Shown here: positions 36,664 to 54,246 of the stretch, one piece after another
Position numbering within the stretch: position 1 is the stretch's first letter
Layout: every line of letters begins with the position of its first letter
Assembly (NCBI GenBank): GCA_030533235.1
Contig: JAUNJN010000011.1
Span: forward strand, 1 to 56,198
DNA: 56,198 bases
Direction: 5' to 3'
Source: Eubacteriales bacterium
GTDB lineage: Bacteria > Bacillota > Clostridia > Lachnospirales > Lachnospiraceae
The notes under the pieces: generated by a model
What the model saw: the letters and a program-made list of their open reading frames with translations, nothing else
What the model was told of the DNA's origin: nothing
The model's database searches: none
Made by a program: the position numbers and the translations under genes

Positions 36664-36693
36664 ATAAAAAAACCACGGGAATAATCCCGTGGT
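36664..36693 (-). terminator. Strong terminator after the major pilin gene
   Basis: On the minus strand ACCACGGGA and TCCCGTGGT form a 9-bp GC-rich stem with a 4-nt loop, followed by seven U. It ends the pilin transcript 18 nt after its stop codon. Confidence 0.93.
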
Positions 36694-36711
36694 TCTAACA
36701 GTCATTGAATA

Positions 36712-37209
36712 TTATTTTGATTTTTTCAAATTAATCTCTGTACCCGTAAGTTCACCATATTCTGCTGCTGTTGCATCCCAGGATGCCTTGCCGGTTGATG
36801 CATCATATACATAATAAATTGCATCAGCTGCAGTTCCTTCAGAATACATTACACCATATACGGTATATGCAGCATGATTGTCTGCGGTTGCTGTAGCTGT
36901 TGTACCGCCAACCTTGATCTTTGCAATTGTACACTTTGGAACATCTGCTGTTGTAAGACAAGAAGCGTCTGCTGATGCGGATGCGGCAATGTAAGACGGT
37001 GCCTTATCTTTTGCATAAGCACTGGACAAATCAGCCTGTGCCGCCGTAAGTACACTCTTTCCATTTAAAACAACCTGCTGTCCCTTTGCCTTGTCAATAT
37101 AGCCAAGTAAAGCAGGAACCAAAATAGCTGCTAAAATAGCAAGAATAACAATAACAACAATTAACTCAACCAATGTAAAACCTTTGTTTTCTTTCATCTT
37201 CTTTTTCAT
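36712..37209 (-). CDS. pilA: Type IV major pilin (prepilin), 165 aa
   Basis: This is the presumed main building block of the pilus. A short basic leader (MKKKMKENKG) precedes the cleavage site Gly10/Phe11 and the pilin helix FTLVELIVVIVILAILAAI with the conserved Glu at mature position 5. The rest is rich in Ala, Thr and Ser with two Cys (in SCLTTADVPKCTI) that could form a disulphide, and tandem tyrosine-containing strands near the end. GGAGG lies 8 nt before the ATG. It has its own promoter and terminator, so it can be expressed at higher levels than the machinery genes. Confidence 0.9.
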   Translation of the reverse strand: MKKKMKENKGFTLVELIVVIVILAILAAILVPALLGYIDKAKGQQVVLNGKSVLTAAQADLSSAYAKDKAPSYIAASASADASCLTTADVPKCTIAKIKVGGTTATATADNHAAYTVYGVMYSEGTAADAIYYVYDASTGKASWDATAAEYGELTGTEINLKKSK

Positions 37210-37296: not shown

Positions 37297-38349
37297 TTAG
37301 AAATATTGCTCCAATTCTGCTCTGTCGTTTGTATACTTTACAGCCATTTCTCTTGTGATCATACCGGAGCGCACAAGTCGAACGAGATCCATATTTAATG
37401 TATGCATACCAACCGATGCACCCTGTTGCATAAGAGATGCCAGCTGATGACATTTATTCTCACGAATCTGGTTACCGACTGCATCCGTTCCAAGTAGTAT
37501 TTCCGTTGCGGCAACTCTACCGGTTCCATGACTGTTTGGAATTAAACATTGGGTTATTACACCATTTAATACACTTGATAGCTGTGTACGAATCTGATTT
37601 TGAATTCCTGCAGGACATGCATCAATAATACGATCTATCGTCTGTGCTGCACTTGTTGTATGAAGTGTTGACATGACAAGATGTCCGGTTTCAGCTGCAG
37701 TAAGCGCAGCTGAAATTGTTTCATAATCTCGCATTTCTCCAACAAGTATTATATCCGGGTCTTCACGAAGTGCACTTCGAAGTGCGGATGCAAAATTGAT
37801 TACGTCACGTCCGACCTCACGCTGATGAATCAGTGCTGCTTTTTTGTCATACATATACTCAACCGGATCTTCGATCGTAATAATATGATCTTCTCTTGTC
37901 TCGTTAATATAGTCAATCATCGACGCAAGTGTGGTGGACTTGCCGGAACCGGTAGGTCCCGTCACGAGAATCAGTCCTCTTGGCATATCCGCAAGCTGTG
38001 TAAGAACTCTCGGCAGACCAAGCATCTCAAGAGACGGAATCGAAGAATTGAGCAGACGTATAGTGGCTGCCATTTTTCCGTCCTGCTTAAATACATTCAC
38101 ACGCTGACGATTGCCGTCCGGAGTTCGAATTGCAAAATCAGCATCAATGCCTTCCTCAAGCTTTTCTCTTTGCAAATCTGTCAAAAGTTCTGCAAGCATG
38201 GCAATTGTCTCTCCATCTGAAAACTGGTTTGGTGCCGGCCTTAATTTGCCATTAATTCGATACATCAGCGGCATTCCGACTGTAATGTGAATGTCTGAGC
38301 ACTGCATCCTGCGTGCTTCCATAATCACCTGATCAATAAACATATGCAT
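37297..38349 (-). CDS. pilT: Type IV pilus retraction ATPase PilT, 350 aa
   Basis: PilT is the hexameric cytoplasmic ATPase that disassembles pili and powers twitching. It has the N-terminal PAS-like domain (MQCSDIHITVGMPLMYRINGKL), Walker A GPTGSGKSTTLASM, the Asp box ITIEDPVEYMYDKK, Walker B PDIILVGEMRDYETI and the His box GHLVMSTLHTTSAAQTIDRII. Length matches PilT rather than PilB. It is the last gene of the main pil operon. Its presence shows that the pili can retract, unlike in competence pseudopilus systems. Confidence 0.96.
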   Translation of the reverse strand: MHMFIDQVIMEARRMQCSDIHITVGMPLMYRINGKLRPAPNQFSDGETIAMLAELLTDLQREKLEEGIDADFAIRTPDGNRQRVNVFKQDGKMAATIRLLNSSIPSLEMLGLPRVLTQLADMPRGLILVTGPTGSGKSTTLASMIDYINETREDHIITIEDPVEYMYDKKAALIHQREVGRDVINFASALRSALREDPDIILVGEMRDYETISAALTAAETGHLVMSTLHTTSAAQTIDRIIDACPAGIQNQIRTQLSSVLNGVITQCLIPNSHGTGRVAATEILLGTDAVGNQIRENKCHQLASLMQQGASVGMHTLNMDLVRLVRSGMITREMAVKYTNDRAELEQYF

Positions 38350-38355
38350 CCTCCT

Positions 38356-40041
38356 TTATTCGTAATAAGACACGCGTAGCAACTCATCCACGGTTGTTGT
38401 GCCATCCGCAACCAAATCAAGTGCACTCTTCTTTAATGTACTCATTTCCTGCTCAGAAATCGCATAATCCTTAATTTCCTCGACCGAAGAACCTCTCGTA
38501 ATCATTTCGCGCACTTTTCGGTCAATTGTAAGAATCTCATGAATCGAAATACGACCCTTATATCCGGTATTATTACATTGACGACATCCCTTGGCATGCT
38601 TTACCTGAGCAAATCTTACTCCCGCTATTGCCTCTTCTTCCTCTGTCATCGGACCCCATTCTCCGCAAAACGGGCAAACCTTACGTACAAGTCGCTGCGC
38701 AATAATTCCAACCAATGAGCTTGCAATCATATATGGTTCCACACCCATATCCACAAGTCGGACAACCGATGATGCAGCATCATTTGTATGCAAGGTAGAC
38801 AATACCAGATGTCCGGTAATCGCCGCACGCACAGAAATGCCGGCAGTCTCGGCATCACGCGTTTCTCCAACCATGATGATATCCGGATCCTGTCGAAGCA
38901 GTGCACGAAGTCCGATTTCAAACGTAAGTCCCGCTGTATTGTTTACCTGCATCTGATTTAGATTAGCAACATTTTTTTCAACCGGATCCTCAATGGTTGA
39001 TATATTAACACTACGTTTCGCCAAATCTTCAAGCAACATATATAATGTTGTGGATTTACCGGATCCGGTCGGCCCTGTTACATAAATGATTCCATTTGGT
39101 GATTGAAGCATTTTTTTCACAAGATTATAATTACGTTCCGTCATACCATATGTAGACAAATGATCTATATTTCCTGCGGATGCAAGCAAACGCAAAACTG
39201 CCTTTTCGCCAAACACGGTAGGAATTACCGACACACGCACATTCAAATTGACACCCTCAATATTAATTCGAAAATGTCCGTCCTGCGGAATTCGACGCTC
39301 CGCAATATCAAGATCTCCCAATATCTTAATTCGTGCGATCAGTGAATTATGAATATTTTTTTGCAATGTCATAAAATCTGTAATGACACCATCCATACGC
39401 ATACGTACACTTGTTTTTTTCTCAAATGGTTCAATATGAATATCCGAAACATTGGAATTGTATGCACGAACCAAAATACTGTTAAACAGGTTGATAATCG
39501 GTGTATCGTCATCGCCTTCTTCCACACTAATTTCGACAACATCATTAATCTCCGCCGTATTATCAGATGCTTTTTTTGCTGCCTGTCGTGCAGATACCTC
39601 AGAATAATAGTAATGAATGGAATTTTCCAACGGTACCTTTTCACACAAAGAAATGTGCAAATCCATACCTACAACCTGCCTGATGTCCTCAATTCCATAG
39701 AAATTCAAAGGATCGTCAACTACAATATAATATACATTATCCTCTATCCTATAGCCGATCATATTGTATTTTTCTGCAAGAATTTTTGGTATCATCTCAA
39801 CCGCGTTGATATCGACCGACAAATCCGAAATATTAACAACATCATATCCCAGACGATGTCCGAGCGCCTCAAGCACTTGTTTTTCTGTAATAAATCCGAG
39901 CGCAATCAAAGCACCACCAAGCCGGACCCCTTTATTTTCCTTCTGGTAGGCAACCGCCTGATTAATTTGTTCTTCATTGATATATCCAAGTTCCTGCAGA
40001 ACATCACCAATACGTATATTTTTATTGTTTCTCATTTCCAT
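38356..40041 (-). CDS. pilB: Type IV pilus assembly ATPase PilB, 561 aa
   Basis: This is the extension ATPase of the pilus. An N-terminal GspE-type domain (IGDVLQELGYINEEQINQAVAYQKEN, residues 8-140) is followed by the motor with GPTGSGKSTTLYMLLEDL, STIEDPVEKNVANLNQMQ, PDIIMVGETRDAETAGI and LSTLHTNDAASSVVRLVD. A four-cysteine zinc site (CPFCGEW and CRQCNNTGYKGR) near residues 470-505 is typical of PilB/GspE and absent in PilT. It starts 5 nt after the PilO-like gene. Confidence 0.96.
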   Translation of the reverse strand: MEMRNNKNIRIGDVLQELGYINEEQINQAVAYQKENKGVRLGGALIALGFITEKQVLEALGHRLGYDVVNISDLSVDINAVEMIPKILAEKYNMIGYRIEDNVYYIVVDDPLNFYGIEDIRQVVGMDLHISLCEKVPLENSIHYYYSEVSARQAAKKASDNTAEINDVVEISVEEGDDDTPIINLFNSILVRAYNSNVSDIHIEPFEKKTSVRMRMDGVITDFMTLQKNIHNSLIARIKILGDLDIAERRIPQDGHFRINIEGVNLNVRVSVIPTVFGEKAVLRLLASAGNIDHLSTYGMTERNYNLVKKMLQSPNGIIYVTGPTGSGKSTTLYMLLEDLAKRSVNISTIEDPVEKNVANLNQMQVNNTAGLTFEIGLRALLRQDPDIIMVGETRDAETAGISVRAAITGHLVLSTLHTNDAASSVVRLVDMGVEPYMIASSLVGIIAQRLVRKVCPFCGEWGPMTEEEEAIAGVRFAQVKHAKGCRQCNNTGYKGRISIHEILTIDRKVREMITRGSSVEEIKDYAISEQEMSTLKKSALDLVADGTTTVDELLRVSYYE

Positions 40042-40046
40042 AGGCC

Positions 40047-40784
40047 TTATTCCTCATACATATAGATTTCAAGTGACAAATTTAACACTTTAGATGTTAC
40101 AATTGTATATTCTTCATTCGACGCATCAATTTCAACATTGCGATCATCTGACCACCGGAAATTGCATATACGAATCTGGCTATTATCAGATAAATCGTTA
40201 ATAAGCTGTTTTAAATCCGCCTCATTACCGCCGAGACGAAGCGTAATGGTTGCTGAATATATCCCCGTATTACCTGTCGATTCTTCCAAAAACAAAGAGC
40301 CGGACAGTCCGCTTCCTGTCGATTCTTCTCCTTCGGATTCAGTATCCTCCATATCGATAAATGCCCCGGATGTCTCCTCATTTATTACCTCCTCCAAGGC
40401 TTTGTATGAATACTGGTACGGTTCTAACGAAGCTTCATCATTTGGCGAATCGATTGTAAGATCATATGCCTGTAATGAATAATTAAGCGCCATAGCCGTG
40501 AAATACTTATCAATTTCATCATTGGTCATTCTCGGAAAATATTTTTCCCGCGCTTTTGATATATCCTCCTCCATCTTTGTATGTTCAGCTTCAAGCATTG
40601 GCAGCATGCCAATTTTCATCTCATTTAATTCCTGATCATCCTTTTGCGCAACAATCTCATTTGATATCTTCTTCATATCCTTTAATACAGGATAAATTCC
40701 CCAATACCCGATACATACAACAATTACAAAGATAGAAAGCATGACAAGTAATTTTTTGTCCTTTTCGGTCATTTCCATTTTCAT
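40047..40784 (-). CDS. pilO: PilO-like pilus alignment protein, 245 aa
   Basis: This is a single-pass membrane protein with the layout of PilO: short cytoplasmic start, helix at about 12-33 (LLVMLSIFVIVVCIGYWGIYPV), coiled-coil segment at 34-85, and a soluble domain. An acidic, Gly/Ser-rich insert (EDTESEGEESTGSGLSGS) interrupts the soluble domain. It would pair with the PilN-like part of the upstream fusion to link PilC/PilB with the wall-spanning part. The ATG at 40784 has AGGAGG 7 nt upstream. The call rests on topology and gene order more than on sequence identity. Confidence 0.72.
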   Translation of the reverse strand: MKMEMTEKDKKLLVMLSIFVIVVCIGYWGIYPVLKDMKKISNEIVAQKDDQELNEMKIGMLPMLEAEHTKMEEDISKAREKYFPRMTNDEIDKYFTAMALNYSLQAYDLTIDSPNDEASLEPYQYSYKALEEVINEETSGAFIDMEDTESEGEESTGSGLSGSLFLEESTGNTGIYSATITLRLGGNEADLKQLINDLSDNSQIRICNFRWSDDRNVEIDASNEEYTIVTSKVLNLSLEIYMYEE

Positions 40785-40795
40785 CTGCAATCCTC

Positions 40796-42250
40796 CTATC
40801 TGCCAGCCGATTCCGCAAGCGTACATATCACATGAATATCCCACATATTTTCATTTTCAATAAAAGAATAACCGGTATAATCTACATTGCTGAAAATATC
40901 CTCCATGCATAAGGATTTAATAAATAAATTAATATTATCTACCGTATCCGACTTTACAACCATAGATATCACACCAATATCCGCATCAAATGATTCATAC
41001 GTAACCTCTGCATATAATGCCGCACACTTATCTATCACTTTCGTTACATTATCATTACATACCGGATATGTATAAATATTATCTTCAATATCATTGATTG
41101 CATTATACTGACTTTGCAAATATGTATTCTGCTCTATCAAAACATTGTATCTTGCAACCTGCATCTGAATAACCGGATCTTCATTATATTCCTTTATCTC
41201 ATTCAATGATTTCCTTTTCATATTACGTGCGGTCAGACTGACGGCAAGAAGCATCAACATAACAGCCAATGTTGACAAAATAAGTATCGGATACTTTCCT
41301 ATCCCTTTCTTAGTTGCACTGCGGCTGACGCTTTGCCAATAACGCAAAAGCAAATTCTGAGATTTTCCGTTTCCTTCTATCACAAGACCGCTTGTAGCAT
41401 GCAAATGATATTGAATGTCAATATTCGGTGCACATATGGAAGAAGCGTCAAACAACACAATCGATGTTTGAATGCCTTGCTGTATTATCGCACTTTGATA
41501 CATGGAAAGCTTGTATGGTTCGATACCGGCCAGCACAACCGCCTCCAATGGAAAGTCAATCTGATGTGCCTGCATAAATTGTCTCACATTACTAACTGAG
41601 CGTGCGATATCAAACGCATAATCCTCCGTTCCCTGTTCATGGAAGCATCTTGCACTATTAAAATAATAAAAAGTTCCATCTACCCAGAGCAACGTTGTAA
41701 TTGTCATTTTTTCAGCAATCTGAAGTACAAACGTTTTGTATGTTTTTCCGATTGTCATTTCGGTCAGACGAATCAGGCTGCTTTCTCCTGAATAAATCGC
41801 CTTGATTTTTACTCCGATCTGGGCAAAAATATCCACATATTCTTTGATAAAATCAGGATAGATACCGTCAACATAAAGCTTGCGCAGCTTTCCGTTCATT
41901 CCGATATTTTTGTATCCATAGATAAATGTCTCATCTCGTCGAAGCTCAGAAAACTCCCGATCCACAAATTCAAGCGTTTTCTTTTCATTCATCACAGGTA
42001 TCTCAATGTTTTTTCCAAGAAACTTGGTACTGTTAATCACAATCGTTACATCTTTACGTTCCAGATGGTTTTGAAACCAGAAATCTTTCATAAAGCTGAT
42101 AAACGACTCCTGATCCATAACCATTCCGTTAATTATACTTCCTTCCGGTGCTTCTCCGAAATATGTATCCGTAACCGATATTTTATTTTGTCCCGGCTTA
42201 CCGACAACTACACGTATCTGCTGATTGGCTAAATATAATACTGTACTCAC
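40796..42250 (-). CDS. PilM-PilN fusion-like pilus protein, 484 aa
   Basis: The N-terminal ~310 residues have the pattern of the actin-like PilM (STVLYLANQQIRVVVGK, then SINGMV-type and YGYKNIG segments), the cytoplasmic platform protein. A membrane helix follows at about 315-337 (YPILILSTLAVMLMLLAVSL), then a coiled-coil stretch and a small alpha/beta domain like PilN. In most species these are two genes; PilM binds the N-terminus of PilN, so a fusion is plausible. I start at the GTG at 42250, with GGGGGG 7 nt upstream; the longer reading would overlap pilC. Sequence likeness to PilM is weak, so the family call is from order and layout. Confidence 0.68.
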   Translation of the reverse strand: MSTVLYLANQQIRVVVGKPGQNKISVTDTYFGEAPEGSIINGMVMDQESFISFMKDFWFQNHLERKDVTIVINSTKFLGKNIEIPVMNEKKTLEFVDREFSELRRDETFIYGYKNIGMNGKLRKLYVDGIYPDFIKEYVDIFAQIGVKIKAIYSGESSLIRLTEMTIGKTYKTFVLQIAEKMTITTLLWVDGTFYYFNSARCFHEQGTEDYAFDIARSVSNVRQFMQAHQIDFPLEAVVLAGIEPYKLSMYQSAIIQQGIQTSIVLFDASSICAPNIDIQYHLHATSGLVIEGNGKSQNLLLRYWQSVSRSATKKGIGKYPILILSTLAVMLMLLAVSLTARNMKRKSLNEIKEYNEDPVIQMQVARYNVLIEQNTYLQSQYNAINDIEDNIYTYPVCNDNVTKVIDKCAALYAEVTYESFDADIGVISMVVKSDTVDNINLFIKSLCMEDIFSNVDYTGYSFIENENMWDIHVICTLAESAGR

Positions 42251-42266
42251 GTTTGTTCCCCCCTCG

Positions 42267-43469
42267 CTATTGATATGAAGTTGACATTGACTGATACGAA
42301 CCATAAATCGGCTGAATTACCGAGATAATTATAAATCCGACAATCACAGCCATCACAACAATCATTGCAGGTTCCAGATAAGAAACCAATTTATTTAATG
42401 CCATTTCAGAATCATATTCCATCTGATTTGCTATCGATACAAGCATGGAGTCAAGTGCTCCCGTCTCTTCACCGACCATAACAGAGGAAGAAAGCTTCTT
42501 TGTAAATCCGTCCACGCGATCAAGCGAAACACTTAACATTTCACCGGCTCTGACTTCAGCAATCACTTGTTCAAACTGTTTTTCGATATATCTGTTTCCG
42601 ATTGTATTTTTTGCAATCTGTAAACAATTAATGATTGAAATTCCTGCTGAATACAAGCTTGACATCGTTCTGGCAAACCGTGCAGTATAAATGACCTTAC
42701 GAAGCTTACCAATCACGGGCAGTTTTAATTCAAGCTTGTCTTTTCCATATCGAACAGACGGTATTGAAAAAAGAAGTTTAAATACAACATACGCTATAAT
42801 GGCAAACAAAATAATCAAATACCATTTCTTTTTTACAAAATTACTTATATTAAGTAACGCAGTTGTTGATTTCGGCAATGTATCCATCTGCGAAAACAGA
42901 CTTTGAAATTGTGGAATCACATAACCCATTATTATTGCAACAACAACGACAATCAAAACACATAAAATCTTCGGGTATGTCATGGAGCTTTTTATTTTTT
43001 GTGTCAGCTTATATTCTTTATTGTAATATTCTGCCATTTGTAATGCAATCTGATCCATATTACCACTCGACTCTGCACTTTTTATCATATTGATAAACAA
43101 AGGCGGAAACGCGTCTCCCTGTGCGGATATAGCATCGGAAAAGGCCATCCCCGAACGCACGAGCTTTAATATTGCGGCATATATTTCTCTTTCCTTCGGC
43201 TTAATTGATTCATCCTCCGAGATAATTCGCAGAGCCTTTACCAAAGTGACTCCTGCTCCAAGCAACTCACCGACATTTCTTGAAAATTCTGATATCATGT
43301 TGGATTTCAGTCGCTTGGAATTTTGCTTCTCTTCTTTTGCTTTCGCGGATATAAGAAATAGATTATTTGCTTTAATTTTTTCGTGTAAATCCATCTCATC
43401 CTGTGCAGAAATTGTATCAATCACAGTTTTTCCGTTTACATCCTTCGCCTTATAACGATAATTAATCAC
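42267..43469 (-). CDS. pilC: Type IV pilus platform protein PilC (GspF family), 400 aa
   Basis: PilC is the inner membrane platform turned by PilB and PilT. It has the two GspF repeats, seen as LLGAGVTLVKALRIISED and LYSAGISIINCLQIAKNT, and three membrane helices near 165-190, 215-235 and 370-395. The N-terminus INYRYKAKDVNGKTV is typical. It starts with GTG, with AAGGAGG 7 nt upstream. It sits between pilD and the PilM-PilN gene. Confidence 0.95.
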   Translation of the reverse strand: MINYRYKAKDVNGKTVIDTISAQDEMDLHEKIKANNLFLISAKAKEEKQNSKRLKSNMISEFSRNVGELLGAGVTLVKALRIISEDESIKPKEREIYAAILKLVRSGMAFSDAISAQGDAFPPLFINMIKSAESSGNMDQIALQMAEYYNKEYKLTQKIKSSMTYPKILCVLIVVVVAIIMGYVIPQFQSLFSQMDTLPKSTTALLNISNFVKKKWYLIILFAIIAYVVFKLLFSIPSVRYGKDKLELKLPVIGKLRKVIYTARFARTMSSLYSAGISIINCLQIAKNTIGNRYIEKQFEQVIAEVRAGEMLSVSLDRVDGFTKKLSSSVMVGEETGALDSMLVSIANQMEYDSEMALNKLVSYLEPAMIVVMAVIVGFIIISVIQPIYGSYQSMSTSYQ

Positions 43470-43493: not shown

Positions 43494-44276
43494 TTAATGT
43501 ATACGAATGCTATGAATATAATCAATGTAACGTTGCACAAGCTGTGCACCAAAATTCATTATGAGAGCAATATAGATTCCTGCACTTAAAAACGGACCGA
43601 ATGCAAATTGATCCTTACGTCCTTTTTTCTTTGTCACAAGACATATTACTGCGTAAATACTTCCCGAAACAATTCCAATCAAGCAAGCGGCAACATTCCC
43701 CTTCCATCCGAGCAAAAAACCGGATGCAAACATTAATTTGACATCTCCGCCTCCAAAACCGTTAAACAGAGCCAATATCAGCATTGGTACACTAACAACA
43801 AACAAACCAATAATACGCTCTTTCAATCCGGGACCATCCAATATGAAATATGAAACAATACCTAAACATAACAATGCATAATTAAACTGAGGCGGGATTT
43901 CCTGTGTATCAATATCAATAAATGTAATAAGTGCCAAATCGCATGCAACAATAAATACAAAAAGCGACTCTATACTGACTCCATAGAAAAAAACATCCAG
44001 ACAGGCAATTGTACCTCCTAACAATTCGACCAAAAGCGGACGAATCTGCATTTTTTTTCCACAATATCTGCATCGATTTTGGAAAAGCATTCGGGAAATA
44101 ATAGGAAATACATCCACCCACTTCTGCTCATGTCCACAAAATTTGCAATTGGATCTGCGCGTAAAAATTTTCTGTTTATTCGGTAAGCGTTCAATCACAT
44201 AATTCAAATATGAAAACACTACAATTCCCATCAAAAATACAATCAAATATATCATTACGTTTAAAAAAATCACCAT
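43494..44276 (-). CDS. pilD: Prepilin peptidase PilD (A24 family), 260 aa
   Basis: This membrane aspartic protease cuts prepilins after the Gly of the type III signal and methylates the new N-terminus. It has the four-Cys zinc loop (CKFCGHEQ and CRYCGKKM) and both catalytic Asp blocks, FIDIDTQEIPP and GFGGGDVKLMFASG. The zinc loop indicates the bifunctional form. About eight membrane helices are visible. GGAGAG precedes the ATG. It serves the major pilin and the four prepilins of this locus. Confidence 0.96.
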   Translation of the reverse strand: MVIFLNVMIYLIVFLMGIVVFSYLNYVIERLPNKQKIFTRRSNCKFCGHEQKWVDVFPIISRMLFQNRCRYCGKKMQIRPLLVELLGGTIACLDVFFYGVSIESLFVFIVACDLALITFIDIDTQEIPPQFNYALLCLGIVSYFILDGPGLKERIIGLFVVSVPMLILALFNGFGGGDVKLMFASGFLLGWKGNVAACLIGIVSGSIYAVICLVTKKKGRKDQFAFGPFLSAGIYIALIMNFGAQLVQRYIDYIHSIRIH

Positions 44277-44278
44277 TA

Positions 44279-44719
44279 TTACTCTCCGTTATATGTTTTT
44301 ATGTGTAAAATATAGTTTATTTTGTATGAATCACCGGTTTGAGCATTGTATTCATAAATTACCTGAAATCCATTTCTTTCATATATAAATCCTAATATTT
44401 TGCGTGATTTTTTGTCATATGAAGTTAATGTGATATAGCAATCATCCATTTCAAGATACTCACAAATATCCTGCTGTATGCCTTCCCTCATGCCATCCTT
44501 ACGAGTACTGTCAAAAATAGTATTGTTATCCGCATATGCATAGATATCATACATTTCAAGTGCGAGTTTTACATTCTTTGCTTCTCGAAAAGCAAATCTT
44601 AATTCTGTTTTGAATCTTGCATACATCATTACAGGAACACTCAGTAACAAAACAAATACAACAAGAAGAAAGATTTTAAATTTGTTAGATTTGAAAAAGC
44701 TTTGCAATGCACTTCTCAT
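44279..44719 (-). CDS. Membrane protein of unknown function in the pil operon, 146 aa
   Basis: A basic start (MRSALQSFFKSNKFK) is followed by one membrane helix at 16-35 and a soluble part of about 110 residues. It has no type III pilin signal, so it should not be a pilin. The soluble part has two pairs of short strands (DDCYITLTSYDKKSRKILGF, FQVIYEYNAQTGDSYKI) suggesting a small alpha/beta domain. The ATG at 44719 has AGGAGAGGG 4 nt upstream; an ATG 21 nt earlier overlaps the previous gene. Placed between the minor pilins and pilD, it could be an accessory to minor-pilin assembly. I recognise no family. Confidence 0.7.
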   Translation of the reverse strand: MRSALQSFFKSNKFKIFLLVVFVLLLSVPVMMYARFKTELRFAFREAKNVKLALEMYDIYAYADNNTIFDSTRKDGMREGIQQDICEYLEMDDCYITLTSYDKKSRKILGFIYERNGFQVIYEYNAQTGDSYKINYILHIKTYNGE

Positions 44720-44732
44720 AATACCCTCTCCT

Positions 44733-45380
44733 CTATTCATTGTTAACTGTGATTTTATTCATGTCAGCATCCGAAAAATTATAGCATTCAATATATTCAA
44801 CATTTGTGTATGTTCCGTATTTCTCACTCGATAATGTACAAGTCATTTTAATTATATTTGGATTGTAATCTCCCAAAACCTGTTCAAACTTTAATTTCTC
44901 TATGCGATATCCCATATAAGCTTTTGTATCAAACATCCAGTCTTCTGCCGGTATTTCATGACCATCCGTTGCATCATTCACAGCATAATAGTGCATCATA
45001 AAATATCCGTCTCTTGCTTCAATATATACTTGTGTGCCGGTATGATTATAAAATTCTATTCGTCCGTTCTCATTTCCTGCCGAATCCTTACCGATTATTA
45101 CCGCATACATAAGAACATCCTCTGTTCCATTGGAATTCTTACGGATTAGATTTGTTGTCATTGCCCCTTCGATCTCACCCTTGATTTTCGTTGCAATAAT
45201 ATCCGAAACCTGTATCGTGTTTGTAATGCTCTTTGCACTATAATATACACTTATTACATTTGAAATAACCTTTGTTGCCGCAACCATAAACAAGCTGATT
45301 AATGTAAATGTTGTAATCAACTCAACAAGCGTTGTGCCCCGGTTTTTTATTCTGTTTTCGCTTGCTTTTGTATGTTTCAT
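44733..45380 (-). CDS. Minor prepilin, PilW/GspJ-like, 215 aa
   Basis: A type III signal is clear: cleavage after Gly15 (KNRG/TTLVELITTFTLI) with the conserved Glu at mature position 5 and a hydrophobic helix of about 22 residues. The soluble part has a disordered loop and several beta-strands. Size and position third in the minor-pilin row resemble GspJ or PilW, which sit in the initiating tip complex. GAGG lies 8 nt before the ATG and only 2 nt separate it from the preceding gene. Confidence 0.85.
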   Translation of the reverse strand: MKHTKASENRIKNRGTTLVELITTFTLISLFMVAATKVISNVISVYYSAKSITNTIQVSDIIATKIKGEIEGAMTTNLIRKNSNGTEDVLMYAVIIGKDSAGNENGRIEFYNHTGTQVYIEARDGYFMMHYYAVNDATDGHEIPAEDWMFDTKAYMGYRIEKLKFEQVLGDYNPNIIKMTCTLSSEKYGTYTNVEYIECYNFSDADMNKITVNNE

Positions 45381-45382
45381 AA

Positions 45383-45778
45383 TTATTCCTCATATCGAAA
45401 ACGTATTTGGTGTAAATCTGCATCCACGCACTCATAATAATCAATCACAGCATGTTTCATCATTAGATTCGTCGCTTTAATATTGCGGTCAGCATCTTCC
45501 TTCACACAAAGCTTAATTGATACTCCATCAATCTTTGTAAATCCCTCTTTCTGGTTTGTATTGTCTGTAGCAAGAACTTTTTTTGTGTACATTTGCTCAT
45601 TCAATATGTGTATTTCATTATCTAAATCCTTGCTTTTTTTTACCATCTCATTTGACATTCCTACAATATGAACCATACATTCGACAATTACCAAAACAAG
45701 TATTGTAAAGCCTACCAATACCTCAACCATTGTAGACCCTTGATTTTTACTTTTTTGTTTCGTGTAAATTAAATTCAT
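45383..45778 (-). CDS. Minor prepilin, PilV/GspI-like, 131 aa
   Basis: The type III signal has cleavage after Gly14 (KNQG/STMVEVLVGFTILVL) and Glu at mature position 5, with a hydrophobic helix to about residue 36. At about 117 mature residues it is the smallest of the prepilins, as GspI/PilV usually is. AAGGTG lies 6 nt before the ATG. Confidence 0.85.
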   Translation of the reverse strand: MNLIYTKQKSKNQGSTMVEVLVGFTILVLVIVECMVHIVGMSNEMVKKSKDLDNEIHILNEQMYTKKVLATDNTNQKEGFTKIDGVSIKLCVKEDADRNIKATNLMMKHAVIDYYECVDADLHQIRFRYEE

Positions 45779-45787
45779 AGAATCACC

Positions 45788-46465
45788 TTAATCTCGTTCC
45801 TGAAAATTCCATTTCCAATGCTCATCTTCATCAATTGAATATCCCGAAGGATTAACGATTTCCAGTGCTTGCGACGTATCTATCTCACCGGAAAGTGTTG
45901 TTGACGGATAATTACTTACACTTAACGTAAAGTAGTTTCGCATAATTGCACTTTGGTCATCTTTCGTAACATGAACCTCAACACAAAGCAATGTTTCTTC
46001 CTTCATCAACAAAACATCTTCATTTTTCCAATATACACACAGTGTAATATCACTTGTCTGCGCCTCGTACCTCGACGAATCTCCACCTGATAAATCGAGA
46101 GTAAACTCTCGATAGCTCAACTTATTTTGCTCCTCTGAGTATTCTGCTTTGTATCCCGGCCAGTTTTCTTGAAATAAATTATACCGAAGGTAAAACCATA
46201 ATGAATTTTCTCCATTTGATACACGTTCCAAAGCTAGCTTTTCCTCCTCATAAGATGCAAAGTTTAGTTTGGTAAGCTCCTGTTCAAGTTCAATACTTAA
46301 CGATTTTGCTAATTCCTTACATTGTCTGCTTGTAACCTTACGCACCGCAGAAGCATATAATGAATAACATACAAGCAATAATGATAAGCAAAAGGCAACA
46401 ACTACAACTGACACAATAATTGCAATCAACATTGCTGAGCCTTTATTATGTTTTGACTTTTGCAT
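45788..46465 (-). CDS. Minor prepilin, PilX/GspK-like, 225 aa
   Basis: The type III signal has cleavage after Gly9 (KHNKG/SAMLIAIIVSVVVVAF), but mature position 5 is Ile rather than Glu. GspK, which caps the tip of type II secretion pseudopili, also lacks that Glu. The helix is followed by a beta-rich domain of about 180 residues. AAGGAGGGG lies right before the ATG. It lies between the giant prepilin and the PilV-like gene, so the four probably form one tip complex. Confidence 0.8.
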   Translation of the reverse strand: MQKSKHNKGSAMLIAIIVSVVVVAFCLSLLLVCYSLYASAVRKVTSRQCKELAKSLSIELEQELTKLNFASYEEEKLALERVSNGENSLWFYLRYNLFQENWPGYKAEYSEEQNKLSYREFTLDLSGGDSSRYEAQTSDITLCVYWKNEDVLLMKEETLLCVEVHVTKDDQSAIMRNYFTLSVSNYPSTTLSGEIDTSQALEIVNPSGYSIDEDEHWKWNFQERD

Positions 46466-46483: not shown

Positions 46484-49400
46484 TCATAAATCAACCAAAC
46501 TACCAACTCCGTCTAAAGTAAGTTCATAATAGTCTGTCCACTCGCCTAAGCCAAATTGATCAACTGTTGCAAAACGAACTGTCACCGTTTGTTTCGGTTC
46601 TGTGATAAAATATTCTTTTGCATCAATTGTAAATGAACCGTGCATAAGTGCATCAACTGCATCGTAATCCATACAAATTGACTTATATTCTGTCCACTTC
46701 ATATTGTTATTTTCATCAAATACAATCATCTGTACCATAATCAAATCTGAATTTGATGTCAGATTATATGTAATATTCATTGTATCAAAATCATTTGTCT
46801 CAACTGTTGCAGATACTTTTGGCATTTCTGTCAGAACCGCATCATAAGAATCATCAATGGTAAATACATCTTCAATATACATATTATCATAGTATGAAAT
46901 ATAGCATCCAATCGGTGAATTGACATATGCAGCTTCATCAACATCTACACATGCCTGCACCGTAACCTTTCCAAAAAATTCGTTCGACTCATAAGGAAGG
47001 ACAAGTAAAAATCCATCCTCCGTTTTGCGAATACTTGCACATTTGCTAAAACAAACTGTCTGCACGAACGAAGATTGCTCTTCTGTTTCATAGTCAGTCT
47101 CTGAAGCATCAACTGTAATTTGAGTTTCAAGTTCTCTTGTGAAAGGTAAATCCACAATGTCATTTTCACTGTCAAATGTTCCTAAATATTTCCAGAAATC
47201 ATATGTATCTCCAAACACACCTGTAATTCTTCCAGAATCAAAACCTATGTAATAAACATCAAAAACTGTATTGTATCCTTCCAACCGTTTTACGATTGAA
47301 ATTTTTCTAACACAATCATTCATTATGTGCAAATTATAAGTATCCGCATAATCGCATTCCTTTAAAATAATTGCCCGCTGTCTAATTTTCTTGATGCAAT
47401 CGTCAGTCTCATACAAAGACCAATTGCTTCCATCATAGTATTCATCAATTGTATCCAAACATTGCTTGTCTACAAATGCCGGCATGTCAACAATCACTTG
47501 CGGAATCTGAATCCATAAATAATTAACGGTTTTACCATTTGCATCTTCATCAGACCATGCTGAATTCAAATATTTATCGCCAGTTCTTCTCACGGCGATT
47601 TTAAACCATTTTCCTGCATAATCAGATAATTTTACGTTATTTCCTAACACGCAAGTTGCATAATCCAACGTGTTACCATCCATAACAAGTGGTGTATTCT
47701 TACTTGCAATCGTAATTCTTGCACCAGAATTCCAATATGTTAATTCGTCGCTCGGATTCGAATCTCCCGGATTTGCAACATTTGTTTGCTCACCCTCACA
47801 GAAATCAAAAATTGCAACTGCAAGTTCATAGTTTCCATCGCAAGACTCCATGAAGTTATCTGATACAGAAAGAGTAATTCCCTCTTGATTAAGTTCAGTT
47901 TCGGAGATAGGCTCATTGGAATCAACATCAAAATGAATTGCTGTTGCAGCTATCGCCTCCAAGCGTTGCGGTACAGTAAGAACATATTCCGCCCCCGGTC
48001 TGCTGTCACGATAAACCTCCTGACCATATTTGGCAATTGCTTTCACGGCAAATTTTAATTCGTGCTCTCCTTCGAACCGCGATAAATCAATAATTTCTGT
48101 ATGATTATCCTGTGAATCGTCAATCGCATTAGGATATATGTTCTTCTCATAACAGATATCATACGAAACAGAACCATCCAACAGGCTTACCGGCTTACTT
48201 ACAACAATCTTATAGTAAGCAACTGCCTGTTTTTCACTAGCTACCTGTATTGGAGAAAAACTGACGGCATATACTAAAGAATCTTTATTTGTCGTGCCAT
48301 TATCATATTCAGAAAGCCGAACACCATCAACCGGGACAGAACTTAAGCTGACCTTGGATTGAAATTCTTTTTCACCGGAATTAGCCAAGATATGTATATT
48401 GGCCTCCTTATCGTATCTACCCTGTCTTGTAACAATCAGCTTAAGCTTTGCATAATCCCAAACATCCGAAACATCTTCAAAACTGACCGTATTATTTGAA
48501 ACATTTGTCTGTTCACCGAGCAAATCGAACGAACCATCCGTATTGATTCCAAGCAGTTTCGTATCATAAACGGCATTTTCATAGTTCTTATCAATATCCC
48601 AGCTAAATGTGTAAATCAAATTCCCCGATGTTGAAACCTCGTAAAAATCTGAAATTTCAGGCATTTCCTGCATTGGGATTTTATACGAAGTACTCATAAC
48701 ACTCTGCATATTTGTTTCAATATAATTTGAGACTGCCTGATAGGATGCACAAGCAAATACGGTTGCTCCCTCACGATTAAATGCTACAATTCCGTCTCCT
48801 TTTCCTTCAGCAGCGAAAAGTTCTCCATAGTTTTTGCAACGAAGAACCTTCATATCATTTATCGCACAAATTCCGCCTGCATAGCCGGAACCTTTTGACG
48901 TTACCGTACCATAGTTTACACAATCTGCCACTCGTCCTTCTGTTGAATCAACCTTTTGATTATATCCGACGATACCTCCGACATTTCCTTCTTCGGCAGT
49001 TACTGTTGTACGATTTACAAAAAATCCGATTTTGGAATCATCATTGTGAACAGTATTTTTGCCAACAATACCGCCGACTGTATCATGTCCACTGACAGAT
49101 CCGGTTACTGTAATTTTATAGTCATCCTCTGCCGAAGCTGTCACAATCACACCATCATTAATTCCGGCAACACCACCTACATTATCTCCTGTAGAAGAAA
49201 TATGAATATCACCAATATTATGCACAAGCAAAATAATACCTGACTCCCCATTATAGGCGGCTACTCCGCCTGCTGCACCTGCACATACAACAGATATATT
49301 ATTAACAGACGGATTCTGAATATATCCATAATTTTCAGCCACAAGTGCACCTGCCATTTCCTGTCCGGTTACCGATACACCATCAGCCATACAATTTTTT

Positions 49401-52400
49401 ATCATCGCATGCTTTTGGTTGATTCCGCAAAGTCCGGCAGCATAATTCTTCGCATCTGAGTAAATCACGGAAGCCGAACAATTTAAAAGATACCCATTAT
49501 TTATTTCGCAAATTGAACCACTGTAATTTCCCTTTGATGCAATAATTGATAATAAATCCGCTGAACAGTTTTCCAGCACAGTCCTAAATCCAACAGTGCC
49601 AATAATTCCACCGGCATATGAATAAAAACTGTTATTTGCATCCGCAATATCCTGATTGGCAAATATAGGTGTGTTATTCGTCGTATTCTTGATATAGAGC
49701 CGGCTTTCTTCGTTACAAAATCCAACGATACCTCCGACACAGATATTACCCTCGATTTTTTTTAGTCTGTTTACCTGATTTGCTGATGTTTGTCCGTTTA
49801 TTACAAAAGCAACATCCGAAACATTAAGATTGCTTGTAAGTCCTGCTATCGAATCAATCGTATCAACAACGTTATACTGTGCAGTTAGAGAACCGCTATT
49901 ACCCGTAATCGCATTCACAATCTGCTTTGAAAGATCATTTACATAACCATATTCCGTACCCGTATCCGAATTATCAATCAACAGATTGTAGCCGATAAAT
50001 CCTCCTACAAATGCATTACCACTGACAATTTCTTCTGTGTTATTTGCACTGTAGCTTGTATTGATTGCATATTTTCTTTCAAAAGCCGGCACATCAACCG
50101 GAGGCTCATTCGGCTTGGAAGATGCAGCTTCATAGTATTCATATTTATGAATGGTTCCAAGCTGTAGATTTTCTACATCCGACGGGTTATCACCGATAAT
50201 CTGGAACTGACCGGTAATTGTTGCCCCCGGCAAAATCGTATTATTATATATAAACTGCGGAACAATTATTAATTTCCCGTTTTTATGTTCATAGCGAATC
50301 CAACCACTGTATACTTCAAAATCACGACCGTTTACATCGATTTCAAAGCCCCAGCCTTCAATCGTTTTATCGGAAGTATTCGTAATAGAATAATTATATC
50401 CGGCGATATATTTTCCGGTCTCATTTTGCCATACACCGTATGGTGTAAGTGATACCGTAAAATCACGATTCGTTTGAATTGTCAAAGTTCGGGCTTTTAC
50501 CGCACGTAAAATATTATCCACATAAAGACGAGCCTCTGAATTTGTAAACTTAAAATAATCAATACTTGATTTTGTATAAATTGAAAAATCAAGACTGCCT
50601 CCCGGCAAATAATCATTTTCATTCATCGGAATAATAATCAATTTGTTATTACTGATCAGGAAGGTATGATTTACTGCCTGGCACAAACGAACTTCCACCC
50701 CATCCGGAATATCAATCTCAATTCTCCAATCCGAAACAGATGCGCCGTTTTTTGGCACTGCTGATATCGAATATTGAGAAATGATATCGACTCCGTTTCC
50801 ATCCATATAAGCATTCGTTCTGTCAAAAGACAATGTAAAATCATTCGTTGGTGTCTCTGTCGGATTATCCGGTATGATAGGCGCAGGCGTATCCGTCACT
50901 TCGTCATCTGTTACTTCCGGTATTGTAGGTGCAGAATATACAGGAATATCTGTTGTACTTGCCGTATATCCCGATGTATTGATAATATTTCCGCCCAGTA
51001 TACCACCAACAAAATATCCGCCGGATACACTGCTTGGACTTGCCTCGATTGTCTTTGCCGAACCATCACCGGACTGTAAAAGATCAAGCGATGCGTTAAA
51101 TCCTACATATCCGCCTACAAAGCACCCATGCTCTGTCCCTCGGACAAAACCACCATCCGCTACGTAATCTTCAATAACCGCCTGCTCGTCATTGTATCCG
51201 ACAATTCCGCCTACATAAGATGTACCGGAAATATTGCTCGAAATATAAATCTTTCGTTCATCAGCGGATGCTGTTTCGATGATTTGTGTCTTATCCATTG
51301 TATCACGAAGTGTATTACCGATAATTCCGTTGTTATATCCGGCAATACCGCCTACATAATCCCCTGAAAAACTCTGTTTTAATTTCATCGGCAGCTGACT
51401 GCTGTCAATATTACTGTCACAGTTATAAATCCAGCCTGTATTATATCCGGAAACACCGCCTGTATAACAATCCACAGCAAAAACAAAGCCCTTGTTCTCC
51501 CAATTACGTATTTCCGAATTATAATGAACATCACGTTTCGGGGTAGCAACCGTTTCCAGAGCTTCAATTTCATCCTGTTCTTCTTCTAAATCAGCATTAC
51601 AACCTGCAATACCCCCTACATATTTTACGCCAATAACATTTGCTGTGTTTACGGATTTTTCATTTTCCGAGCTTCCGTCAACCGGTCCAAGGTTGCAGCC
51701 TGTAATACCACCGACAAAGGAATGACCAAATACATAGCCGACATCGCCATCTTCACTCTTTGTAGAGCAATTCTTAATTTTGCCATAATAGTTGTATCCG
51801 ACTATACCACCAACATAAACACCGTTTAAGTGCTCATCAAATAATGTGTTTATATCTGCCGCATCATATTTCGGAGTACTCACGCAATCAACTATTTGAA
51901 GTAAATTTGTATTCTTCGAGCCATCATCTGCTTCATATAAATTTGCCGCATAACCAATAATTCCACCTATGAATCCGCTCTTTAAAGCGTCAACATTGTT
52001 AGTGCCGATTTTGTCACGTGCATAAACTGCACCTGTATTCTTACAATCCTTTATTGTTACGGAAACAAATCGATCACTTGGAATTCGAACCTCACCAATA
52101 ATGCCACCAACATATTTAATTCCGGTTACTTCTGCTTCGTTTTTTAAGTTTAAGAGTTCAACAGACGGCACTGCATAACCACCTGAATACGCGTCATTTA
52201 GTACTTGTAAATATCCGACAATGCCACCTACGTGTTCCTTACCAATAACAGAACTTTCCTTATCTTTTTCATCACTTGTACTCAACACTTCAAGATTAAA
52301 TAACACTCCTGCATCCGGGGCAAATGTGCAGACGTTTACACCGCAAAATGCACCAACCTTATCACTGTTACTATATACTTTTGTTTGATCCAGTGTTATG

Positions 52401-54172
52401 TCGTGCATTATTCCATAATTTGTACAAATTAGCCCTACTGGCTTTTGTCCTTCATCTGCACCTTCATAAAGGAAAGCAGCCGCATTGTTTACTTCTGAAA
52501 TATTCAACCCTGTAATTGTATACGAGTCACCATCAAACTCATCGTTTGCACCAAGCTGCTTAATTGAAACAAACTGGTTTTCATATCCTTCAGGTACAGT
52601 AACACCTGCCTTCTTTGTATCAAAATAATAACCATTGTTTACAAACTCGCTCCAATTAATATCATTCGTCAACTGATATAGAATAGATGTATTTGCATTT
52701 TTGGAATACGTTGACCAGTATTTTGCAATTTTCGTTTCAGAAAAATCAGCCACATATCTAATATTATTCAGATGTCTTGCATTGGCAATCGCAAGCTTTG
52801 CAACATATCCTGAATCATCGGCATTTAATGACACTTCTGCAAAATATGCTGACTCTGTGTTACTTTGCTTAATAGCAGAGGCCTTAAATGCCAACCCATA
52901 AGCTTTTACCTCACAATAGATGTTATCAACATCAAGGCCAAATCTGTGGAAGCTGTATGTAGACATAAATTTGGAAGCCGCAGAACTTAATTCAATCGAG
53001 TTCTCTTGCACGCCATCAGTCAACATAATATCCATCGCATTACCATAAAGATTTGTATTTGCCTGAAAATCCGCTGCATCAAGTAAGATTTCAATTTTAT
53101 CTGAACTATTTACCCATGCTAAAATTGACATTTCTCCTAAATTGTGTGAAACAATGCTGTCACTCGCAGCCTCATATCGATTACGAGTAACCACACACTT
53201 TTGGGCCTCTTTGTTTGCCTCATTTTTTAGTTTCGATCCATCCAAAGTGAAGGAAAGAAAATCCTTATCCGGCTCATCCGCATCTCGAATTATAACATCG
53301 TAACTGAGCGATGAAAGAGCACCATTTGCATTGCTAACACCAAATGACAAATATAACGTCTGTTCGTTATGAAGCTCCAATTCTGAAATTGAAATCGATT
53401 TCTGTCCTCCCTTTATTGACTTTGAAAGCGTATCAACGCCATAATAACCTGTCATACGAAGCTTACGTGCAGCTTCCTGTCGGTCAAGAATACTGATATT
53501 ACCTCTGTCGCTATCGCTTTCTGTGTAAACAAATCGTGAATATTCAGTTGTTCCATCCGTTGCAAATTTGTCTGTGAAAAGGACAGAAAAGACCTGACCG
53601 TCCTCAAGCGAAAACTCGATACAGATTGTCTCATTTAAGAGGCTCTGATCATAAATATAAGAATCAAGCAATTCAAACACAAACGGAGCAGTCTCACTAT
53701 TTGTGTCTGCCCCCTGTAAATATCTGCTATAATCACCCTTATCTGCGCGCACACAGACAAGGGATCCTTTATTTTCGGACATCCAAATATAATGCTTATC
53801 TGTCGCTGCCATTTGATCAATATCCTGCGTAAGCAACAATCCATCTTCTGCTGTAATTTTTTCTACAGGTACTTTGGATGCCCCGGCTTCCGAAACACGT
53901 TCACTAAAATCCTGAAGGGTGCCATTTGCATTATATTCTGATAACTGATTTTGTGCAGACAAAAACATCGTCTCAGCATACTCATTGACACGATTAAAAT
54001 CCGACCAATCCGTCCATGACAAAAGTCCTGAAACAGAAATTGTCAGCATAATGCTAAGAACGACCAACGTCACAAGCAGCTCTACCAACGTAAATCCCTT
54101 GTTTGACCCTGCATAATGTTTCTTAGATGTTATATGTAAATTATTATCGAAAGCTTTATTTTGATTGTTCAT
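46484..54172 (-). CDS. Giant prepilin-like adhesin with GLUG repeats and CBM2-like domains, 2562 aa
   Basis: The N-terminus is that of a type IV prepilin: a 26-residue leader ending NKG, then FTLVELLVTLVVLSIMLTI with Glu at mature position 5. A pilin-type region follows to about 130. Residues ~640-1060 hold about 11 GLUG-like repeats (YVGGIVGYN pattern), spaced 30-55 residues apart. After a Thr/Pro/Asp linker (~1075-1105) come two domains of about 110 residues (~1106-1220, ~1222-1345) resembling CBM2; the second has ITNTSDKTIEGWGFEIDV, an SGW turn and a TILPGATITGQF end. About 12 more repeats span ~1390-1795, then beta-rich, Fn3-like modules to the end. I prefer the ATG at 54172 (GAGG 9 nt upstream) over one 15 nt earlier. 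It likely replaces PilY1-like tip adhesins; substrate binding is inference. Confidence 0.82.
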   Translation of the reverse strand: MNNQNKAFDNNLHITSKKHYAGSNKGFTLVELLVTLVVLSIMLTISVSGLLSWTDWSDFNRVNEYAETMFLSAQNQLSEYNANGTLQDFSERVSEAGASKVPVEKITAEDGLLLTQDIDQMAATDKHYIWMSENKGSLVCVRADKGDYSRYLQGADTNSETAPFVFELLDSYIYDQSLLNETICIEFSLEDGQVFSVLFTDKFATDGTTEYSRFVYTESDSDRGNISILDRQEAARKLRMTGYYGVDTLSKSIKGGQKSISISELELHNEQTLYLSFGVSNANGALSSLSYDVIIRDADEPDKDFLSFTLDGSKLKNEANKEAQKCVVTRNRYEAASDSIVSHNLGEMSILAWVNSSDKIEILLDAADFQANTNLYGNAMDIMLTDGVQENSIELSSAASKFMSTYSFHRFGLDVDNIYCEVKAYGLAFKASAIKQSNTESAYFAEVSLNADDSGYVAKLAIANARHLNNIRYVADFSETKIAKYWSTYSKNANTSILYQLTNDINWSEFVNNGYYFDTKKAGVTVPEGYENQFVSIKQLGANDEFDGDSYTITGLNISEVNNAAAFLYEGADEGQKPVGLICTNYGIMHDITLDQTKVYSNSDKVGAFCGVNVCTFAPDAGVLFNLEVLSTSDEKDKESSVIGKEHVGGIVGYLQVLNDAYSGGYAVPSVELLNLKNEAEVTGIKYVGGIIGEVRIPSDRFVSVTIKDCKNTGAVYARDKIGTNNVDALKSGFIGGIIGYAANLYEADDGSKNTNLLQIVDCVSTPKYDAADINTLFDEHLNGVYVGGIVGYNYYGKIKNCSTKSEDGDVGYVFGHSFVGGITGCNLGPVDGSSENEKSVNTANVIGVKYVGGIAGCNADLEEEQDEIEALETVATPKRDVHYNSEIRNWENKGFVFAVDCYTGGVSGYNTGWIYNCDSNIDSSQLPMKLKQSFSGDYVGGIAGYNNGIIGNTLRDTMDKTQIIETASADERKIYISSNISGTSYVGGIVGYNDEQAVIEDYVADGGFVRGTEHGCFVGGYVGFNASLDLLQSGDGSAKTIEASPSSVSGGYFVGGILGGNIINTSGYTASTTDIPVYSAPTIPEVTDDEVTDTPAPIIPDNPTETPTNDFTLSFDRTNAYMDGNGVDIISQYSISAVPKNGASVSDWRIEIDIPDGVEVRLCQAVNHTFLISNNKLIIIPMNENDYLPGGSLDFSIYTKSSIDYFKFTNSEARLYVDNILRAVKARTLTIQTNRDFTVSLTPYGVWQNETGKYIAGYNYSITNTSDKTIEGWGFEIDVNGRDFEVYSGWIRYEHKNGKLIIVPQFIYNNTILPGATITGQFQIIGDNPSDVENLQLGTIHKYEYYEAASSKPNEPPVDVPAFERKYAINTSYSANNTEEIVSGNAFVGGFIGYNLLIDNSDTGTEYGYVNDLSKQIVNAITGNSGSLTAQYNVVDTIDSIAGLTSNLNVSDVAFVINGQTSANQVNRLKKIEGNICVGGIVGFCNEESRLYIKNTTNNTPIFANQDIADANNSFYSYAGGIIGTVGFRTVLENCSADLLSIIASKGNYSGSICEINNGYLLNCSASVIYSDAKNYAAGLCGINQKHAMIKNCMADGVSVTGQEMAGALVAENYGYIQNPSVNNISVVCAGAAGGVAAYNGESGIILLVHNIGDIHISSTGDNVGGVAGINDGVIVTASAEDDYKITVTGSVSGHDTVGGIVGKNTVHNDDSKIGFFVNRTTVTAEEGNVGGIVGYNQKVDSTEGRVADCVNYGTVTSKGSGYAGGICAINDMKVLRCKNYGELFAAEGKGDGIVAFNREGATVFACASYQAVSNYIETNMQSVMSTSYKIPMQEMPEISDFYEVSTSGNLIYTFSWDIDKNYENAVYDTKLLGINTDGSFDLLGEQTNVSNNTVSFEDVSDVWDYAKLKLIVTRQGRYDKEANIHILANSGEKEFQSKVSLSSVPVDGVRLSEYDNGTTNKDSLVYAVSFSPIQVASEKQAVAYYKIVVSKPVSLLDGSVSYDICYEKNIYPNAIDDSQDNHTEIIDLSRFEGEHELKFAVKAIAKYGQEVYRDSRPGAEYVLTVPQRLEAIAATAIHFDVDSNEPISETELNQEGITLSVSDNFMESCDGNYELAVAIFDFCEGEQTNVANPGDSNPSDELTYWNSGARITIASKNTPLVMDGNTLDYATCVLGNNVKLSDYAGKWFKIAVRRTGDKYLNSAWSDEDANGKTVNYLWIQIPQVIVDMPAFVDKQCLDTIDEYYDGSNWSLYETDDCIKKIRQRAIILKECDYADTYNLHIMNDCVRKISIVKRLEGYNTVFDVYYIGFDSGRITGVFGDTYDFWKYLGTFDSENDIVDLPFTRELETQITVDASETDYETEEQSSFVQTVCFSKCASIRKTEDGFLLVLPYESNEFFGKVTVQACVDVDEAAYVNSPIGCYISYYDNMYIEDVFTIDDSYDAVLTEMPKVSATVETNDFDTMNITYNLTSNSDLIMVQMIVFDENNNMKWTEYKSICMDYDAVDALMHGSFTIDAKEYFITEPKQTVTVRFATVDQFGLGEWTDYYELTLDGVGSLVDL

Positions 54173-54217
54173 ACCAGCATTCCTCATGTCACTAAATTAC
54201 ACAAAATCTAACACCTT

Positions 54218-54246
54218 ATTATACAATTTTTACGACCAAAAATCAA
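54218..54246 (-). promoter_or_regulatory. Sigma-A type promoter of the pil operon
   Basis: TTGATT (54241-54246), a 17-nt spacer and a perfect TATAAT (54218-54223) on the minus strand. The -35 directly abuts the aroE-aroK stop codon. It would drive the giant prepilin gene and the nine genes after it, down to pilT. Confidence 0.85.

Follow-up and report, generated by a model that had tools for sequence, protein, structure and literature searches.

A giant modular prepilin with GLUG repeats and CBM2-like domains at the head of a type IV pilus operon in Lachnospiraceae

The stretch of DNA analysed here (the window) comprises positions 1 to 56,198 of contig JAUNJN010000011.1 (assembly GCA_030533235.1) from an Eubacteriales bacterium of the gut (Lachnospiraceae), and it encodes on its minus strand an unusually large prepilin, hereafter the giant. 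The open frame (46484-54187, minus strand) spans 2,567 codons without an internal stop, and the start at 54172, which by eye has the better ribosome-binding motif (GAGGA upstream at a good spacing), yields a protein of 2,562 amino acids (aa). An earlier note on this DNA had proposed a single gene with a complete prepilin signal, and this holds: the frame is uninterrupted and the N-terminus passes the cut-offs of both Pfam N_methyl (27.6 bits, cut-off 21.2) and NCBIfam IV_pilin_GFxxxE (26.3, cut-off 16.3). All elements of a class III signal are found (glycine at -1, hydrophobic stretch, glutamate at +5); the glycine, the phenylalanine and Glu+5 are invariant in 15/15 aligned sequences, as are the glycine and Glu+5 in the 14 sequences of another alignment. 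After the predicted cleavage the mature giant would comprise 2,536 aa (277 kDa, pI 4.4, 41 cysteines), more than ten times the size of a usual pilus subunit. GC content per kilobase is 0.35-0.41 across the giant gene and 0.32-0.38 across the downstream pilus genes. The gene and its modules are:

54218..54246, minus strand: promoter-like site TTGATT-17-TATAAT 5' of the giant, a match to the consensus only (the region has 89 sites of this kind against 67 expected)
46484..54172, minus strand: giant modular prepilin, 2,562 aa
54095..54172, minus strand: leader of 26 aa with NKG at its end, predicted cut before FTLVE (class III signal)
53432..54094, minus strand: pilin module of ~220 aa, last motif GYYGVD, with a predicted long alpha1 helix
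52403..53431, minus strand: middle region, weakly Ig-like beta-sandwich and linker
50963..52369, minus strand: GLUG block 1, predicted beta-helix
50048..50962, minus strand: inserted cassette, P/T-rich linkers and two CBM2-like domains
50549..50851, minus strand: CBM2-like domain d1, diverged
50162..50467, minus strand: CBM2-like domain d2
48773..50047, minus strand: GLUG block 2, by repeat pattern
46487..48772, minus strand: C-terminal region, ~760 residues

The boundary of the pilin module is marked by stand-alone homologues (loci L073, L075 and L087), which terminate at the position of GYYGVD. The AF2 model predicts a long alpha1 helix near the N-terminus (residues 10-64), with a beta domain after it; no pilin fold appeared among the VIA rows shown for this model, which barely cover the pilin module. 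A sequence search of the PDB with the whole giant gave no match, and the same search with a profile of the N-terminal part gave 8 matches, all of them pilins and all at pilin N-termini. Pfam GLUG (PF07581; we take IPR011493 to be the GLUG entry) scores 26.3 bits (cut-off 20.5) in 5 stretches, and a strict GLUG-like pattern occurs in 21 copies, compared with a mean of 0.17 and never more than 3 when the residues were shuffled 500 times. A looser pattern, counted without a shuffle control, finds 23 copies in two blocks (12 + 11), which matches the roughly 23 repeats in two blocks described previously. Foldseek with a 1,051-aa model returned mostly weak antibody-like matches (E >= 0.12); VIA-align on the Foldseek candidates matched the beta-helix, with IgA1 protease structures the most similar, and GLUG beta-helices are known from IgA1 proteases. 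The C-terminal region (46487-48673) gave no Pfam match. With a pilin module fused to domains that are not specific to pili (GLUG, CBM_2), the giant is a modular pilin, and the proposal of an adhesin-like body grafted onto a real prepilin is borne out by the module boundary together with the GLUG and CBM2-like domains.

The central linker of the earlier note is present, but it also holds the two CBM2-like domains, which had been missed. Scored alone, d2 reaches 26.7 bits with CBM_2 against a cut-off of 24 (26.2 in the genome search), compared with 23.7 when the whole giant is scanned, and it qualifies as a CBM2 fold; the CBM2-fold matches include chitin-binding modules. Domain d1 is related to d2 (27% identity, E 2e-5), gave no Pfam match and falls below the CBM2 criteria. 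When the genus was searched with d1-d2, 20 of 37 genomes gave matches, and 17 of the 21 matches lie in frames of 523-605 aa. Fourteen domains were scored (genus matches and the separately found L055), and 13 of them, L144 being excluded, were aligned with d2 (alignment A4): all 13 belong to GH5 cellulases with CBM_2, both above cut-offs, and one (L130) is from the window's own genome. All 14 rows share W17, N34, W43, W60 and N79, so that d2 keeps the tryptophans of the cellulases. W17 and W60, which we take to lie on the CBM2 binding face, are aligned by the A4 profile with tryptophans of 3ndy; the profile match itself (3ndy CBM2, E 1.6e-10) was discounted as support for d2, since it stems mostly from the 13 enzyme rows. 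In d1, a tyrosine occupies the first of these positions and the second is without an aromatic residue. As the binding-face tryptophans are kept in d2 and not in d1, a sugar-binding role appears likely for d2, whose ligand would most likely be cellulose or another insoluble beta-glycan, and doubtful for d1.

The giant opens a type IV pilus operon, as proposed before, with co-directional pilus genes downstream (three prepilin-like genes, a small membrane protein, PilD, PilC, PilM-like, the PilN/O place, PilB, PilT and PilA) and an aroE-aroK fusion and rpsO upstream:

45788..46465, minus strand: minor prepilin without Glu+5, GspK/PilX-like by that feature
45383..45778, minus strand: minor prepilin, ComGE/GspI-like, below cut-off
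44733..45380, minus strand: minor prepilin, J-like by operon place
44279..44740, minus strand: small protein (~150 aa) with a single apparent transmembrane stretch
43494..44276, minus strand: prepilin peptidase PilD (Pfam A24)
42267..43469, minus strand: PilC/GspF platform protein
40796..42304, minus strand: PilM-like protein, weak (E 0.007)
40047..40844, minus strand: PilN/O-like protein, by place only, with no significant family
38356..40041, minus strand: PilB extension ATPase with MshEN/c-di-GMP-binding domain
37297..38349, minus strand: PilT retraction ATPase
36712..37209, minus strand: PilA, likely major pilin
36669..36696, minus strand: terminator-like hairpin 3' of pilA, 12 pairs and a T tail, a consensus match only

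Three small minor prepilins had been predicted to follow the giant: the genes are there, but their identity comes from motifs read by eye and weak matches, none reaching the Pfam N_methyl cut-off. In 23 of 27 loci that we chose for comparison, the gene directly 3' of the giant is prepilin-like without Glu+5 (N-termini read by eye); in L058 such a gene comes second, after a fragment, and L077, L079 and L166 differ. Absence of Glu+5 is a mark of GspK/PilX-type subunits, and since the next gene is of this type, the H-type position may be the one filled by the giant. The MshE-type domain of PilB means that the pilus may be under c-di-GMP control; MshEN is also present in the PilBs beside stand-alone pilins. 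Genes of similar size to 44279-44740 lie between the minor pilins and PilD in many relatives, and no family was matched. A GH94 phosphorylase gene (31900-34302) close to the operon suits a life on cello-oligosaccharides, circumstantially.

Relatives of the giant are found in 19 of the 61 genomes searched, every one of them from the same genus. A profile of the N-terminal part (A1; 15 sequences, 602 positions) matches 19 of the 37 genus genomes at E <= 1e-10, with near-complete coverage and no stop in 15 (the source of the A1 sequences), which include the window's own genome and one, G006, on a single contig. The cognate PilC (at least 58% identity) is present in 18/37 genus genomes and occurs together with the giant in 17 (Fisher's p 1.9e-7, the genomes being related and not independent). 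Genomes G002 and G007 have the giant without PilC, and their contigs end nearby; G029 has PilC only by count, yet at its locus L060 the C-terminal end of a giant lies beside minor pilins, and p is 1.2e-8 if G029 is counted as having both. Order-wide, a threshold of E <= 1e-20 leaves matches in 12 of 392 genomes (9 of 173 genera), several over the pilin part only and that of G293 with an internal stop. Among the 61 loci listed for named genomes, at least 14 (L061-L072, L074, L076) match over ~390-592 of 596 residues and lie mostly on Lachnospiraceae contigs, with L061, L062 and L065 being, judged by length, the same contigs as those of G035, G008 and G018. The earlier note had called for a search for homologues combining a pilin N-terminus with GLUG repeats: such giants exist in the genus, in other Lachnospiraceae and in the order, in frames of ~1,170-4,300 aa, and the culturable commensal Eubacterium sp. 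MSJ-21 is one of the carriers. As the fusion recurs across genomes, it is neither a frameshift nor an assembly join, in line with that note.

The homologues of ~4,300 aa carry ~1,700 additional residues ahead of the C-terminal region, in which a Pfam scan of one homologue (L043, residues 1620-3330) found no domain, and the giant of G016 (contig L058, 1-7020) is split into frames of 1,455 aa and 739 aa. Genes upstream of the GLUG giant encode another family of giant prepilins, 1,136-2,082 aa long, whose leucine-rich repeats are of the BspA type (DUF285): N_methyl and DUF285 were detected by Pfam in 7/7 tested (L051, L052, L064, L071, L072, L074, L161), and at L063 an 858-aa neighbour has a List_Bact_rpt repeat in place of DUF285. 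The window's own genome also contains a second type IV filament cluster (L168, G000:C23, 2554-8883), in which two prepilins measure 576 and 336 aa and one gene of 989 aa gave no Pfam match.

The joint at which the CBM2-like cassette is inserted is visible by BLAST coordinates in 16 giants of the genus: six carry an insert and ten do not (G004, G008, G014, G016, G020, G022, G023, G024, G026, G032). The carriers are the window and G002 (both with the tandem, at 90% identity), G027 (a single domain, CBM_2 18.4 bits, below cut-off) and G025, G006 and G035, whose inserts show a weak kinship to CBM2 (E 0.08-0.9 with a profile lacking their sequences); that of G006 gave no Pfam match. The G006 insert is 42% and 39% identical to those of G025 and G035, compared with 74-91% for the other parts, and the third pair is similar. 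Between the window and G002, the proportion of synonymous differences (pS) is 0.235 in the insert (95% confidence interval 0.166-0.306) versus 0.481 (0.438-0.527) in the GLUG flanks, a difference reached by 0 of 2,000 permutations. Along the gene, sliding pS for this pair is mostly 0.6-0.75 before codon ~880, 0.17-0.38 at starts 921-1481 and 0.65-0.69 at 1521-1601, with later dips to 0.36 (1641), 0.28 (1761) and 0.31 (2441). Such mosaic divergence is as expected from a recombination tract around the insert, with shared constraint as an alternative. For the three remaining pairs it is the insert that has the higher pS (0.64-0.70, compared with 0.36-0.40), values possibly inflated by misalignment at ~40% identity, and the case for exchange is hence drawn from the window/G002 pair: in this one pair, the binding module appears to have been exchanged between lineages as a cassette, and different specificities could thereby be placed on the same carrier.

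In the portions of the literature available to us, the principle is a known one: a 2021 survey of modular pilins counts >1,200 proteins in 264 architectures (PMC8179133), and Streptococcus sanguinis has PilB with a vWA module and PilC with Ig-like and lectin modules (PMC8179133, PMC9934059), a tip complex having been modelled (PMC9934059). These published modular pilins leave the previous statement, that tip adhesins elsewhere are separate proteins and not pilins, without support. PilB and PilC share with the giant a small pilin module, a grafted adhesin and a monoderm host, and the Ig-like domain of PilC precedes its lectin; however, PilC has 52.8 kDa compared with 277 kDa, neither protein has a GLUG beta-helix or CBM2, and the most extreme modular pilin surveyed for domain number has 860 residues (PMC8179133). 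If IPR011493 is GLUG, the pilin + IPR011493 architecture is probably of the same kind as the giant. It is listed as IPR012902-IPR011493 and named once as a predicted M26 peptidase, with no size, operon or cassette given in the text available (PMC8179133). ComZ of Thermus thermophilus is likewise a minor pilin with a large beta-solenoid, but this lies inside the pilin beta-sheet and is thought to bind DNA, whereas the graft of the giant follows the pilin module (PMC8179133). The PilY1/PilC tip adhesins are also very large and presented by minor pilins (PMC8179133, PMC9934059), but are non-pilin proteins; identity with these was rejected, as no beta-propeller match was found in the giant with Pfam at E <= 1. 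Ruminococcus albus and R. flavefaciens similarly have type IV pili that are tied to cellulose adhesion in gut Gram-positives, although the R. flavefaciens pilin has 14 kDa and no binding domain is named in the accessible text (PMC3672088). HycP of Clostridium cellulolyticum is a comparable 250-kDa repeat protein with a CBM, but its CBM is a CBM3 and its repeats are hyaline repeats, and the accessible text states no link to pilins (PMC3723904). No description of giants of this type was found in the open-access PMC literature among the matches listed, and the size, the CBM2 cassette and the conserved operon place are new as far as searched.

We consider the odds somewhat in favour of the giant being a modular minor pilin with a grafted glycan-binding adhesin that grips plant fibre and is exchanged as a cassette. 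PilD, encoded in the operon, would remove the leader and the ~220-aa pilin module would join the type IV pilus via the neighbouring minor pilins, with the remaining ~2,300 residues serving as the adhesin, in which an Ig-like neck is joined by a long stalk of GLUG beta-helix and by the tandem CBM2-like module within that stalk. The adhesin would probably sit at the pilus tip, and the giant would be expected only there or once per fibre; for modular pilins, a position within the filament body is also allowed by their authors (PMC8179133, PMC9934059). Pilus extension and PilT-driven retraction could then attach the cell to plant fibre and draw it in, and cassette exchange would provide one carrier with different specificities. 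A more far-reaching version, which we offer tentatively, is that the Lachnospiraceae pili of this operon bear obligatory giant tip pilins of up to ~4,300 aa, one carrier in which cassettes are recombined at a fixed joint of the GLUG stalk, the CBM2 tandem being the cellulose-binding determinant of the pilus in this species.

It is unlikely, albeit a serious competitor, that the giant resides in the pilus but binds host mucin glycans, other bacteria or phage, with cassette variation reflecting escape from phage or immunity or a change of partner: variability among the three close relatives is greatest in the insert, ten assessable genus genomes lack it and chitin-binding modules are among the CBM2-fold matches, but d2 has the tryptophans that are invariant in the CBM2s of GH5 cellulases from its own genus. 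Less probable again is that the pilin signal is a mere membrane anchor, the giant being a surface adhesin that never enters the filament or only a short stub. The size of the giant, the Gram-positive wall and the indirect case for filament assembly speak for this, whereas the retention of Glu+5 in both alignments, the co-occurrence with its own pilus machinery and the existence of stand-alone pilin homologues speak against it. An IgA1 protease-like (M26) enzyme carried on the pilus, suggested by the closest beta-helix structures and the published naming of the architecture, is very improbable: there is no HExxH motif anywhere in the giant and no peptidase domain in its Pfam scan. That a pilin was joined to a surface protein by an assembly or frameshift artefact, for which nothing was found in favour, is refuted by the stop-free frames of the genus, one of them single-contig, and by the named Lachnospiraceae contigs.

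Common tools would miss this family, because the criteria of a Gram-positive pilin finder include a length <350 aa (PMC3244431) and the Pfam Glug model detects 1 of 19 distant family members. The favoured reading, that of a pilus-borne glycan-binding adhesin, raises the question of how a 277-kDa subunit is seated by the pilus machine in a thick-walled cell. With its CBM2-like domain, the giant is a directly testable candidate for cellulose adhesion by gut Gram-positive pili and, if this is true, the cassette would fill a gap in the present picture of how plant fibre is held by type IV pili in the gut.
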